A model generated the notes under the pieces. That model saw nothing but the letters and a program-made list of their open reading frames with translations. It did no database searches and was not told where the DNA came from. Source: Microbacterium oryzae (GTDB lineage Bacteria; Actinomycetota; Actinomycetes; Actinomycetales; Microbacteriaceae). From it: 64,000 bases of DNA. A program made the translations under genes and the position numbers. The first letter of the stretch is position 1. Each line of letters opens with the position of its first letter. Positions 36,885 through 41,407 of the stretch are shown piece after piece. The DNA lies in contig NZ_JAUEPM010000003.1 of the NCBI RefSeq assembly GCF_030406385.1, positions 1 to 64,000 of the forward strand, in the 5' to 3' direction.

Positions 36885-37500
36885 GAGCGCCTCCCGGCTG
36901 CGCGGGGCCGAGCGCGGCGAGCGTCAGGCGCAGGAGGGCGGGCACCGACGCGCGGTCGGCGTCGGAGGCCGACTCCGCGGCCGACGCGACCGCGTCCACC
37001 GCGACGCGCTCGGGCCATCCGAGACCGGCGACGGCCTGGGTGACCTGCGCGATCACCGCGTCGGGCGCTGCCGCCCCGCCCGCCGCGGCGGCCGGTGACG
37101 GCGGCGCGAGCCGCCCCTGCAGCTGCAGGGCGATGAGCTTGGCGGTCTTCGGGCCGATGCCGGAGACCTTGCGGAACGGCTTGTCGTCCTCGTTCGCGAC
37201 CGCCTCGGCGATCTGATCGATGGTGAGACCGGACAGCACGCCGAGGGCGGACTTCGGACCGACGCCGGTGACGCCGAGGAGGATCGCGAACACCTCGAGC
37301 TCCTCGCGCTCGGCGAAGCCGAACAGCGCGAGCTGGTCCTCGCGCACGATGAGGTGCGTATGGAGGAAGAGCTCCTCCCCCTGCCTCGCGATGCGCGCGA
37401 CGTCGACCGGCACGGCCACCGAGAAGCCGACGCCGCCCACCTCGACGATCACGCTGTCGGATCCGGTGTGCAGCACGGTTCCGCGCAGTGTCGAGATCAT
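36877..37500 (-). CDS. ruvA: Holliday junction branch migration protein RuvA
   Basis: The 207-residue junction-binding tetramer subunit has domain I ([20 protein letters not shown]), helix-hairpin-helix motifs ([35 protein letters not shown]) and a C-terminal domain III that contacts RuvB. The ATG is 7 nt after a TAGGCT box, so the transcript is probably leaderless, separate from ruvC. Confidence 0.96.
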
Positions 37501-37507
37501 GACAGCC

Positions 37508-37513
37508 AGCCTA
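37508..37513 (-). promoter_or_regulatory. -10 box of a leaderless ruvAB transcript
   Basis: TAGGCT on the minus strand, 7 nt before the ruvA ATG. It sits in the 47-nt gap between ruvC and ruvA, so ruvAB can be transcribed apart from ruvC. Confidence 0.6.
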
Positions 37514-37547
37514 CGGTGCGATCGTACCTATGTTCGATGCGACACGC

Positions 37548-38117
37548 TCAGCGTGCGAGGGCGCCGCGGTTGCGCGTGCGCTTCTCGGCTTCGGCCCATG
37601 CGCGCTGGGCGGGCGTGAGCGCCTCGCCCGCTGTGGCCTCCGCCGGCGCGCCGCGCCACGCGTGGCACAGCGCGAGAGCGAGCGCGTCCGCCGCATCCGC
37701 GGGGCGAGGGAGCTCCTCGAGCCGCAGCACGCGGGCGACCATGGTCTGCACCTGCAGCTTGTCCGCGGACCCGTATCCGGTGATCGCGGCCTTCACCTCG
37801 CTCGGGGTGTGCGTCGCGGTCGGAAGGCCGGCCTCGGCCGCGAGCAGCAGGGCGACGCCCGCGGCCTGCGCGGTGCCCATGACCGTGGAGCGGTTCTGCT
37901 GCGCGAAGACGCGCTCGACGGCAACGACCTCCGGACGGTGCTCCTCGAGGACGACGCGGATGCCGGCGGCGATGATCGCGAGCCGTTCGGCGACCGACGC
38001 GTCCACCGGCGAGCGGACGACCGCCACGTGCACGAGGGTCGCCGTGCGGTCCCGCCGCACGTCGACGACGCCGACACCGCAGCGGGTGAGACCGGGGTCG
38101 ATGCCGAGCACGCGCAT
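37548..38117 (-). CDS. ruvC: Crossover junction endodeoxyribonuclease RuvC
   Basis: The 189-residue RNase H-fold resolvase starts MRVLGIDPGLTRCGVG with the first catalytic aspartate. It has the acidic residue in VVAVERVFAQQN and the final pair in ADAADALALALCHAW. The start codon is 6 nt after a TAGGCT box. Confidence 0.96.
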   Translation of the reverse strand: MRVLGIDPGLTRCGVGVVDVRRDRTATLVHVAVVRSPVDASVAERLAIIAAGIRVVLEEHRPEVVAVERVFAQQNRSTVMGTAQAAGVALLLAAEAGLPTATHTPSEVKAAITGYGSADKLQVQTMVARVLRLEELPRPADAADALALALCHAWRGAPAEATAGEALTPAQRAWAEAEKRTRNRGALAR

Positions 38118-38123
38118 GCCGCC

Positions 38124-38129
38124 AGCCTA
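38124..38129 (-). promoter_or_regulatory. -10 box of leaderless ruvC
   Basis: TAGGCT on the minus strand followed by exactly six bases and the ruvC ATG, the spacing expected when transcription starts on the start codon. Confidence 0.6.
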
Positions 38130-38219
38130 CGCCGGGGGTCTCACGCGCCCCGGCGGCGCGCGGCGGCGCGTGGGTGTGGGGCGGTGTGCTCGCGCGGTGC
38201 CCGGGCCGGGGGACGCGGA

Positions 38220-38633
38220 ATCCTCCGAGACTGCGCGATCGCTCACGCGCATCGTCAGCGCTCCGGCACCGCGCGTAGCGCACGCGGTCTCGGAGGATCG
38301 ACAGGGGCATGCTCGGCGAGACAGCCCCATCGCTCCGGGACGTCGCCATTGCGCGGGGCGAGCCTTGGCGGCCCGAGACTGCGCAAACGCTCGCCGACAG
38401 GCCCGCGGCTCCCACGGCTCGTGCGAAGCACGCGGTCTCGGAGCATCGGCGTGTGCGCCCGCGCGATGCCGCCCGATTCCGCTGCCAGGAACGCGGTGCT
38501 CCGAACCCGCTCCGCCGCTTCGACACCGCGCGTCCGCTCGCGCCCGCCGGCGCTGCTCCCGCACCGGGCGTGAGGCACGCAGTCTCCGAGCATCAGCGAG
38601 GGCATCGCCTGCGCGACAGCCGCGTCGGGCGAG
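38220..38633. repeat. Three tandem degenerate ~147-bp repeats with internal inverted repeats
   Basis: This fills most of the 516-bp gap between ruvC and the AbiEi/DUF559-like gene. The right-hand core GCACGCGGTCTCGGAG ends at 38295 and 38443 (148 bp apart), and a variant with two changes ends at 38590 (147 bp further). The left-hand element CGAGACTGCGC occurs at 38226 and 38374, with a degenerate copy at 38521. In unit 1, ATCCTCCGAGAC (38220-38231) and GTCTCGGAGGAT (38287-38298) form a perfect 12-bp inverted repeat with a 55-nt loop. I see no gene in it. Open frames exist on the plus strand, but the codons fit repeat structure rather than a protein family. Confidence 0.75.
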
Positions 38634-39611
38634 TCAGCGCTCGGCGGCGGGTGCCGCGGCTGGCGCCGCGGGAAGCGTCGCGAGCAGCGCGTATCGGGGC
38701 AGCCTTCGCCGCACCAGGCCGGCGGCGCGGAGAGCCTCGTCGAGCTCACGCGGGTCGCGCACCTCCCGCCATCCCCACCGCGCCACGTTCGCATGCTCGC
38801 GCAGCAGCCGGTCGCGCTGCTTCTCTGCGAGCACGACCTCCGCCGGCGCGCCGTATGTGCCGTCGTACTTGACCGCGCCATCCGCCTCGCCGATCACGCG
38901 CGCGTGCGGCCACCACATGTCCACCCGCTGCGTGCGGCCATCCCTCGTCGTGATCTGCCTCTGAAGAAGGGGCTCGTCATAGCCCAGCCAGGTCGCCGCG
39001 CATCGGCTCACCGACTCGAGCGGCGTCTCGGCCAGCGGATTCGCGGACGCGATCGCCTCCGATGCCCTGCCACAGCCGCGACCGACGGGCCGGTCCCCGT
39101 TCATCTTCACGAGGTCGTCGCGAGTGGGAGCATCCGAACGGCGCAGCAGCGCGTCGAAGATCGCGACGCCGGCGGCGAGATGACGGGAACGAGCGATGTC
39201 GATGGCGGTGTCGGTCGGCGAGACGACGCGCAGACCGTCGACCTCCACGACCTCGCGCGGGTACCGACTCTGGTGGATGCGCACGCCGCCCGACGCCCGC
39301 GCGGTGCCGGTCTCGGTGAGCAGGTGAACCTCCTCCGGCTCGGCGAGCACGGGCAGCCCCAGCACGGCGGCCGCCGACTCGAGGAACAGCGTGGCGCCGG
39401 GATGGGTGAGCGCCGCCGCGTGCACGCGCACCAGGTACCGGCCCCAGGGAGGCAGCGCGCTCCAGCCGGCATCGTCCACGTACACGCCGCGAGCGACGCG
39501 GCGCACCTCGCCGCGACGCTCGGCGAGATCGAGGCGGATGGCCGCATCTCGCGGCGTGAGCAGCGGCAGCGGCGACGGGACGAGTCGGGGCGGGACGAGA
39601 AGAGCCGGCAT
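38634..39611 (-). CDS. AbiEi-like protein with C-terminal DUF559/Vsr-like endonuclease domain
   Basis: The 325-residue product begins with a helix-turn-helix-like region (RGEVRRVARGVYVDD), as in AbiEi antitoxins, then GATLFLESAAAVLGLPV and SPTDTAIDIAR. The C-terminal 110 residues have VDMWWPHARVIGEADGAVKYDG, then EVVLAEKQRDRLLREHANVARWGW. That spacing of E/D, K and arginines resembles the PD-(D/E)XK fold of DUF559 or Vsr-type proteins. Nuclease activity is inferred only. No toxin partner lies beside it. It is flanked on both sides by repeat elements with the same core. The ATG at 39611 has no clear Shine-Dalgarno. Confidence 0.72.
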   Translation of the reverse strand: MPALLVPPRLVPSPLPLLTPRDAAIRLDLAERRGEVRRVARGVYVDDAGWSALPPWGRYLVRVHAAALTHPGATLFLESAAAVLGLPVLAEPEEVHLLTETGTARASGGVRIHQSRYPREVVEVDGLRVVSPTDTAIDIARSRHLAAGVAIFDALLRRSDAPTRDDLVKMNGDRPVGRGCGRASEAIASANPLAETPLESVSRCAATWLGYDEPLLQRQITTRDGRTQRVDMWWPHARVIGEADGAVKYDGTYGAPAEVVLAEKQRDRLLREHANVARWGWREVRDPRELDEALRAAGLVRRRLPRYALLATLPAAPAAAPAAER

Positions 39612-39821
39612 GCGCCCATGCTCTGACGGCCGAAGGCGCCGGTGCCGGGAGCGTCCGGATCTGTGGAGCGCCACTCCGCGTCGCCGCCCCTGTGCACGAA
39701 ACGTGCGGCCGGCGGGCCCCGGCGTCCCGGCCCACCGCCGCCCGCTCCGGCAGGACCGCCGCACCGCCGGCGGCGGGAGCGCACCGTCAGCGCTCGGAGA
39801 CAGCATCGACGCTCGCGCACA

Positions 39822-39874
39822 GCGCCCCCGCTCCGAGACCACGTGCGGAGCACGTGGTCTCGGAGCGGGGGCGC
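39822..39874. repeat. 25-bp perfect hairpin downstream of gatB, sharing the tandem-repeat core
   Basis: The arms 39822-39846 and 39850-39874 are exactly complementary around a GGA loop, with the core CTCCGAGACCACGTGC. The right arm contains GCACGTGGTCTCGGAG, one base different from the core of the tandem repeats near 38280 and 38428. It begins 18 nt beyond the gatB stop and could act as its terminator. The rest of 39612-39821 holds the AbiEi-like gene's promoter region and nothing else recognisable. Confidence 0.85.
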
Positions 39875-39892
39875 GGGAGAGCACCGAAGGCG

Positions 39893-41407
39893 CTACTGCT
39901 GTGCGCGCTCCAGGACCAGCTCGCGCACGCGTGCGGCGTCCGCCTGGCCCTTCATGGCCTTCATGACGGCGCCGATCACGGCGCCTGCGGCCTGGACCTT
40001 GCCGTCCTTGATCTTCGCGAGCACATCGGGCTGCGCGGCGAGGGCGTCGTCGATCGCGGCGATGAGCGCCCCGTCGTCCGAGACGACGGCGAGGCCGCGC
40101 CCGTCCACGACCTCCTGCGGGGTCCCCTCGCCGGCGATGACGCCCTCGAGCACCTGGCGGGCGAGCTTGTCCGTCAGCGTGCCGGCCTCGACGAGACCCT
40201 GCAGGGCCGCGACGTCGGCGGGCGACACGAGAGCGGAGGGCTCGCGGCCCTCGGCGTTCGCGACGCGGGTGATCTCACCCGTCCACCACTTGCGGGCGGA
40301 GGCAGGCGACGCACCGGCGGCGACCGTGGCCTCGACCTCGGCCAGCAGCCCGCCGTTGGCGACGTCCTGGAACTCGAGGTCGGTGAACCCCCACTGCTCC
40401 TTGAGCCGGCGACGACGCGCAGACGGCGACTCGGGCAGCGCGGCGCGCAGCTCCTCGATCAGCTCGAGCGAGGGCTCGACGGGGAGGAGGTCCGGCTCGG
40501 GGAAGTAGCGGTAGTCGTCGGCGTCCGACTTCGGACGACCGGGCGACGTGGTGCCGGTGTCCTCATGCCAGTGCCGCGTCTCCTGCGTGATCGTGCCGCC
40601 GGCGGCGAGGATGGCCGCCTGACGGCGGATCTCGTAGCGGACGGCGCGCTCGACCGAGCGCATGGAGTTGACGTTCTTCGTCTCCGTGCGCGTGCCGAGC
40701 TTCTCCGCGCCCCGCGGACGCAGCGAGACGTTCGCGTCGCATCGGATGTTCCCGCGCTCCATGCGGGCCTCGGAGATGCCGAGTCCGCGCGCGATCTCCC
40801 GTATGGTCGCGAGATACGCCTTCGCGAGCTCGGGTGCGCGGTGCTCGGCGCCGAAGATCGGCTTCGTGACGATCTCGACGAGCGGCACGCCCGCGCGGTT
40901 GTAGTCGACGAGTGAGTACTCGGCGCCCTGGATGCGGCCGGACGAGCCGCCGAGGTGCGTGAGCTTGCCGGCGTCCTCCTCCATGTGCGCGCGCTCGATC
41001 GGGATGCGGAAGACGTCGCCGCCCTCGAGCTCCACCTCGACCTCGCCCTCGAACGCGATCGGCTCGTCGTACTGGCTGATCTGGTAGTTCTTCCCGAGGT
41101 CGGGGTAGAAGTAGTTCTTGCGCGCGAACCGGCTCGACGGCGCGATCGAGCAGCCGAGCGCGAGGCCGAGGCTGATCGACGAGCGGATGGCCTCGGCGTT
41201 GACCGTGGGCATGGAGCCGGGCAGGCCCATGTCGACGGGTGCGATCAGCGTGTTGGGTGCCGCGTCGTGGAACTCCTCGTTGGCGGGGTTCCCCGCCTCG
41301 GAGAACATCTTCGTGCGCGTGTTGAGCTCGACGTGCACCTCGAGGCCGATGACGGGCTCGAACATCTCGAGCGCGGCATCGAAGTCCATCAGCTTGTCCT
41401 TGGCCAT
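39893..41407 (-). CDS. gatB: Asp-tRNA(Asn)/Glu-tRNA(Gln) amidotransferase subunit B
   Basis: The 504-residue tRNA-binding kinase subunit phosphorylates mischarged Glu- or Asp-tRNA before amide transfer. The conserved [13 protein letters not shown] and [16 protein letters not shown] segments are present, with the YqeY-like C-terminal tail domain. The ATG at 41407 overlaps the gatA stop as TGATG after a GGAAGGAGG site. Last of the gatC-gatA-gatB operon. Confidence 0.97.

Follow-up and report, generated by a model that had tools for sequence, protein, structure and literature searches.

The window, by which we mean the whole 64,000-nucleotide stretch of Microbacterium oryzae DNA that was analysed, contains three minus-strand genes in close succession: ruvC (37548–38117; Pfam RuvC, 5.5e-48), a gene encoding a 325-residue protein (38634–39611), and gatB (39893–41407; Pfam GatB_N, 6.2e-104). 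ruvC, which lies outside the element described below, and gatB are treated here as context. The 325-residue protein is predicted to contain an AbiEi-like region (residues 14–191) and a Vsr/homing-endonuclease-like region (residues 196–301), and we refer to its gene as the AbiEi-nuclease gene. A 516-bp gap separates it from ruvC, and within the gap are three copies of a right core, starting at 38280, 38428 and 38575 (spacings of 148 and 147 bp) with identities over 21 nt of 100, 95 and 81%, each accompanied by a left element, at 38225, 38373 and 38520. Unit 1 (38220–38298) consists of an outer half-site CCTCCGAGACTGCGC, degenerate inner units and the right core GCACGCGGTCTCGGAG; unit 2 (38373–38448; left element 38373–38392, right core 38428–38443) is degenerate, and unit 3 (38520–38595; left element 38520–38539, right core 38575–38590), about 40 bp past the stop codon of the AbiEi-nuclease gene, is the most degenerate of the three. 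No strand is assigned to these units. The original prediction described a CGAGAC-type left element in all three, but the third copy is the degenerate CGACAC.

The three 147–148 bp units are real. The best three-copy score in the 516-bp gap is 38 of 42, a value reached by none of 300 dinucleotide shuffles (mean 27.1, maximum 31), and the 16-nt core, with up to 3 mismatches, has 15 matches in the window against 6.8 expected, with none of 100 shuffles reaching 15. Two further cores, at 39831–39846 (minus) and 39850–39865 (plus), together form a perfect 39-bp palindrome (39829–39867; CGCTCCGAGACCACGTGC-GGA-GCACGTGGTCTCGGAGCG; likewise unstranded) that lies 25 bp past the gatB stop codon, on the upstream side of the AbiEi-nuclease gene. 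The building block is a half-site of about 19 nt, present as inverted copies about a centre, and not the 147-bp period; in unit 1, a decayed version of this arrangement, 38 nt separate the left half-site (38223) from a degenerate inner arm (38261), which corresponds to two ~19-nt units. The outer arms of unit 1 (38220–38235 and 38283–38298) are 94% complementary, and the expectation that the units fold on themselves is borne out for unit 1 as DNA (z -4.7), but not for the whole array as a single RNA, which folds no better than shuffled sequence (z -0.58).

The same palindrome is dispersed through the M. oryzae genome (G000; 3.09 Mb in 23 contigs), where CGCTCCGAGAC-N17-GTCTCGGAGCG with up to 3 mismatches has 16 copies, compared with one for the reversed control, and an interior of CGCGTGCnnnGCACGCG. 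Aligning the 16 copies with 19 nt added on each side reveals inverted ~19-nt units (CGCTC.....C.GCG....) about the palindrome, and at locus L003 four such units lie on one arm, at intervals of 19, 19 and 21 nt. Model R1 detects positions 38240–38320 of the array with an E value of 3.5e-4. We read the array as a decayed, local grouping of this dispersed palindromic element, its units being degenerate family members, and the amplified palindromic element that had been offered as one of three explanations is supported. Clusters of whole elements recur elsewhere, 127–150 bp apart in genome G330 and 132–174 bp apart in G406, so that the 147–148 bp period looks like local element duplication.

Covariation among the 16 M. 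oryzae copies does not exceed that of shuffles; the arms vary independently at some positions, and half-site letters are conserved where pairing is not. This, and the outcome of an Rfam search with nothing at the gathering threshold, led us to reject another of the three explanations, a non-coding RNA family. The sub-threshold Rfam matches all fall at the perfect hairpin, five of them being to microRNA models and one to a Mesorhizobium sRNA. A CRISPR array would have near-identical repeats with regular unique spacers, and what is present instead is three degenerate units, with a period correctly judged in the original prediction to be too long for CRISPR.

Relatives of the element are widespread in the genus. 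A covariance model built from the 16 copies identified them in at least 26 of 247 genus genomes (E 0.001), counts that are lower bounds since 19 candidates were scored per genome. The exact pattern CCGAGAC-N14-20-GTCTCGG is present at least once in 181 of the 247 and at least five times in 42 (hand count), reaching a maximum of 50 copies per genome with 0–2 for reversed controls. Across 299 genomes representing 85 genera of the family, those outside the genus have 0–6 matches, with interiors that are mostly non-palindromic in the places listed. Among the copies listed, the outer GAGAC/GTCTC is constant and the interior is common within a genome and different between species, being mostly GTGGGGTAACCCCAC in G349, mostly GTGGGTnATnCCCAC in G412, and near GCAGCTGnCAGCTGC in G439.

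The two arms of the interior have changed together between species. In a comparison of 22 genomes, 62 cells are altered on both sides, compared with 21.4 after shuffling (none of 500 shuffles reach the observed value), and dyad-pair covariation is far above both shuffled and slid controls. This set comprises 22 of 23 loci with an exact GAGAC-N17-GTCTC, a second G361 locus being left out and L062, L079 and L196 omitted for lack of the exact core; with the core fixed, the core pairs are invariant by choice. As most of the 22 loci had been found with a model that gives credit for pairing, we repeated the test with a pattern in which the interior is free, using 13 of 14 loci, each from a different genome (G406, with an 18-nt interior, was left out), and found 28 cells against 12.7 after shuffling, again with none of 500 reaching the observed value. 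Covariation that is strong between species and absent inside G000 indicates that the interior has diverged lineage by lineage, a change in one arm being matched in the other.

The element has defined edges. In G349, 16 aligned copies (one copy with an 18-nt interior dropped out) have in common a sharply bounded block of about 73 bp set in unrelated flanks, the mean majority letter per 10-column block being 0.87–0.99 inside and 0.31–0.64 outside or across the ends. By eye, the G349 elements start and finish with CCGCGAGAC...GTCTCGCGG and those of M. oryzae with CGCTCCGAGAC...GTCTCGGAGCG. Of the target-site duplication used to recognise MITEs (derivatives of DNA transposons), none was seen by eye among the 16 G349 copies, nor any clean-edged empty-site pair.

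Copies lie in intergenic DNA at the 3′ ends of genes. Using gene calls from a home-made codon score, we found that the 64 element-bearing intervals in seven genomes are divided into 33 convergent, 26 tandem and 5 divergent, compared with 27, 103 and 54, respectively, for the 184 baseline gaps of at least 100 bp, and only one scanner match in these genomes is inside a predicted gene. Fifteen of the 18 element loci in G330 align to a G000 locus, and element movement in G330 is therefore not recent; in more distant species, sites in common with the G000 loci tested fall to 1 of 11 for G382 and 0 of 7 for G432, and one G432 locus matched G000 only via the AbiEi-nuclease gene itself. At the single presence/absence site seen (L040), G000 has the element and the G330 allele is shorter by about 64 bp, perhaps through deletion. 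Immediately 3′ of gatB, inspection of the 30 closest genomes by eye places the element only in G000 and G330, while G416, outside those 30, has its own element type in that position (L068), and in G335 degenerate units of another type are located between the AbiEi-nuclease gene and ruvC.

The neighbouring gene, mentioned only as context in the original prediction, now appears to be part of the system. Its product matches the PADLOC AbiEi model (E 1.5e-10), and scores with the Pfam AbiEi models are below their cut-offs. An AlphaFold2 model (pLDDT 87.3) was compared with known structures using VIA-align: residues 14–191 match the Streptococcus agalactiae AbiEi antitoxin (6y8q_A; Z 10.4, 164 residues, rmsd 5.8), and residues 196–301 match the catalytic domain of I-Bth0305I (3r3p_A; Z 10.0, 2.7 Å over 93 residues) and Vsr (1cw0_A; Z 8.4). 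Nucleases of the I-Bth0305I type go by the name of EDxHD homing endonucleases. With Foldseek alone nothing reached E 0.001, and the best match was Rv2827c at E 0.0088; a PDB sequence search gave nothing below E 0.5, NCBIfam gave no family match, and the phage records gave no match to the G349 homologue. The nuclease-like region contains the motif D..GE[AS or C]DG..KY, in which the D, GE, DG and KY columns (D231, G241-E242, D244-G245 and K248-Y249) do not vary across the 13 sequences aligned, making D231, E242, D244 and K248 candidate catalytic residues. We predict that the protein encoded by 38634–39611 joins an AbiEi antitoxin fold to a Vsr/homing-endonuclease fold.

Homologues of this protein turned up in the loci fetched for palindromes (with the exception of G335, fetched via gatB), and we read 13 such genes from 12 genomes. 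Elements are present within 350 bp on both sides of eight, on one side of four (those in the window, G330, G501 and G439), and on neither side of one (G335), with identical results at scanner thresholds of 16 and 17 paired positions. The downstream side in the window is the degenerate array which, as with the G335 flanks, is too degenerate for the scanner. With gaps measured at a threshold of 16, the eight two-sided genes have an element 102–142 bp upstream and another at -22 to 62 bp downstream; the upstream gaps in the window and G330 are 210 and 299 bp, and the ten genes with a downstream match have gaps of -28 to 62 bp. An element was the route by which most gene loci were found, so one flanking side is partly accounted for by ascertainment, but the second side is not. 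The control, 400 kb of G349 DNA sampled at even spacing and run at the same two thresholds, contains no homologues, and has 6 elements with no pair within 2 kb at a threshold of 17, and 8 elements with one pair within 2 kb at 16. The genes are found in several contexts, at least gatB–ruvC and CPBP–gcvP, the latter two names being provisional ones for translated locus ends. At the element loci examined in G382, G405, G363, G469, G431 and G471 (at least five in each), no homologue was found.

The flanking elements also resemble the dispersed elements of their own genome. For 18 of 20 gene-flanking elements the nearest dispersed element is from the same genome, compared with a mean of 2.3 and a maximum of 12 in 5000 label shuffles, which ignore phylogeny. 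G000 and G330 were pooled for this test, the G000 set includes two scanner hits that are possibly chance (L048 2334 and L049 2644), and the test omits flanking elements that have no same-genome dispersed copies (two from G475 and one from G501), as well as the single G501 dispersed row. The exceptions are a G439 flanking copy that is unlike its dispersed copies, and a single copy among the four at a G406 gene. Two element subfamilies are present in G406 along with two genes, and each gene is beside its own subfamily.

Similar arrangements are seen outside the genus. Two plasmid-collection records, from Collinsella and Tsukamurella, were fetched by their match to the 325-residue protein alone, and in both the gene is flanked by repeats. 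The Collinsella aerofaciens homologue (31% identity) has 12 half-sites in six palindromes around its gene, four upstream and two downstream, with arms of TGTCTCGATCTGTAACA / TGTTACAGATCGAGACA in which GAGAC appears again; these 12 are the half-sites located around the gene among 22 'places' matched in the record, and no dispersed copies were present in three 50-kb samples (150 kb) of it. The first Tsukamurella gene has units with a 19-nt period downstream and similar units upstream by eye, and its array is partially matched in two further records from the strain. Another Tsukamurella gene (32% identity), likewise fetched by protein only, carries the annotation AbiEi family antitoxin domain protein. 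Inspection by eye shows one partly palindromic block repeated on either side of it (DNA fold z -2.3), and this block matches its own record only, in three places. For a third Tsukamurella relative (L294) no clear repeat pair was evident by eye.

We judge it very likely that the AbiEi-nuclease gene and the palindromes belong together as one system. The protein probably recognises the palindromes and perhaps spreads them; we consider spreading, argued by analogy, to be evenly balanced or slightly favoured. The explanation that we prefer, and think reasonably likely overall, is that the array is a decayed dispersed element and that 38634–39611 encodes the cognate protein that binds, cuts and spreads the palindromes in a REPtron-like manner. 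The dispersed family with its constant core and compensatory, lineage-specific interior, the flanking of the gene by repeats, the same-genome matches between flanking and dispersed copies, and the predicted folds all come from computation, and palindrome binding, cutting, autoregulation and mobilisation by the AbiEi-nuclease protein are what we infer. The AbiEi-type winged-helix module would bind half-sites of about 19 bp, with a constant GAGAC core and a lineage-specific interior, inverted about a 3-nt centre, in the way that AbiEi recognises its operator. A nick or cut at the palindrome or close by would then be made by the fused Vsr/homing-endonuclease-type domain, after which repair or copying could seed further palindromes in other intergenic positions, chiefly 3′ of genes. 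Copies of its own palindrome lie on both sides of the gene, and the upstream copy over the promoter region would probably confer autoregulation.

An alternative proposal is an AbiEi-type autorepressor that has the palindromes as its operators and the dispersed copies as a regulon or architectural set, and that does not mobilise them. AbiEi and Rv2827c are reported to autoregulate through inverted repeats upstream of their own genes (PMC7319586), and the palindrome 102–142 bp before the start of eight genes, together with the finding of Collinsella palindromes only around the gene in the sampled DNA, is consistent with such a role. We nevertheless consider this unlikely, as operators would not be anticipated at 3′ ends, where the dispersed copies lie (see the interval counts above), a further palindrome is located at or near the stop codon, and positions vary between species, with so few G382 and G432 loci in common with G000. 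The 3′-end position and strong hairpins, as well as the compensatory interior changes between species, could alternatively reflect bidirectional terminators or mRNA 3′-end hairpins standardised within each lineage and unlinked to the protein. However, there are no U-tract terminators at 37400–40100, the 16 copies of one genome keep the half-site letters even at positions that have lost pairing, only two of 30 species (and G416 outside these, with its own type) have an element 3′ of gatB, and the link to the gene and the same-genome matching would be left unexplained, such that we regard this proposal as improbable.

The PADLOC AbiEi matches and the predicted nuclease fold also raise the idea of defence or self-marking, in which the nuclease would act against DNA entering the cell, with chromosomal palindromes that titrate, sense or spare it, or of a remnant AbiE toxin-antitoxin system. 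The gene has gatB and ruvC as neighbours with no AbiEii toxin directly adjoining, and the scatter of elements at 3′ ends would be unexplained, and we give this idea very little weight. Finally, units 2 and 3 are degenerate and the full array folds no better than shuffles, as might be expected of chance similarity in GC-rich DNA, which the original prediction had named as the outcome if no other copies existed and shuffled sequence aligned as well. Copies are present elsewhere in the genome and in other species, and the genome-wide counts against controls, the array shuffles and the covariation tests refute chance, to which we attach almost no probability.

Compared with known systems, our preferred explanation of a mobilising cognate protein most closely recalls REP/REPIN elements with their RAYT (TnpA-REP) tyrosine transposases, the elements being described as short extragenic palindromes in tens of copies, forming lineage-specific families and clusters, located mostly 3′ of genes in convergent or tandem gaps, with the gene flanked by its own palindromes (PMC3733652, PMC3116915); a RAYT gene between REPs is termed a REPtron (PMC3733652). 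In contrast to REP/REPIN elements, no GTAG or CGTC tag is present at the ends of the G349 and M. oryzae copies by eye. The Y1 transposase domain (PF01797) is absent from the M. oryzae genome and found in one of 247 genus genomes, with 5 of 14 control genomes positive, and we rejected mobilisation by a RAYT. The sole Y1 domain in the genus is at G338:C15:20980-21342. As these two defining features, the tag and the Y1 transposase, are both lacking, we do not class the system as a member of REP-RAYT, and with a linked protein predicted to have an AbiEi-type binder and a Vsr-like nuclease fold it is a functional analogue only. Whether it constitutes a second, independent REP-like mobile palindrome system in Actinomycetota, in which an AbiEi-Vsr-type protein fills the RAYT/HUH role, seems to us evenly balanced; on that reading the interior and the protein would change together, and at least three genera would have their own repeat type.

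The predicted fold of residues 14–191 and the inverted-repeat sites upstream of the gene are shared with type IV antitoxins of the AbiE class (AbiEi and Rv2827c), which are reported to bind 23-bp inverted repeats with a gap of 3–4 bp within the pair (PMC7319586), compared with half-sites of about 18–19 bp that are 3 bp apart here. By analogy with those published operators, the protein-binding array of the original prediction appears apt. The system departs from AbiE in the gatB and ruvC neighbours in place of an adjoining AbiEii nucleotidyltransferase toxin, in the extra C-terminal nuclease-like domain, and in its many dispersed sites at 3′ ends. Likewise, residues 196–301 have a predicted fold like those of Vsr and the EDxHD homing endonucleases such as I-Bth0305I (Z 8.4 and 10.0), but are fused to an AbiEi module and associated with dispersed palindromes. 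The titles and abstracts in the literature searched gave no instance of AbiEi or DUF559 proteins joined to dispersed palindromes. CGTC REPs have been reported without a dedicated transposase (PMC3733652), and with regard to the origin of REP-like palindromes in genomes lacking a RAYT there is here a linked candidate enzyme of another fold. The several natural cognate protein–palindrome pairs offer material for specificity tests, and the proposed system, if true, would give a role to genes now annotated as hypothetical or as AbiEi family antitoxin domain proteins.

Several other features were noted. A different hairpin, GGATGCCACG...CGTGGCATCC, is present at the gatB 3′ end in L116–L118, L123, L124, L127 and L129; it is common between species and may be an ordinary terminator family. 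G330 has an additional 2.85 kb (L173 6427–9277) and about 7 kb (L174 1006–8054) relative to the corresponding M. oryzae loci, L031 and L149. At both of these sites G330 is without the element, and either M. oryzae may have lost, or G330 gained, genes. Scanning for half-sites gave no match at either end of these two stretches and one 3-mismatch match inside L174, and we set aside the notion that the elements mark gene-content islands. Elsewhere in the window, a G-rich run of 54 bp is located at positions 167–220.
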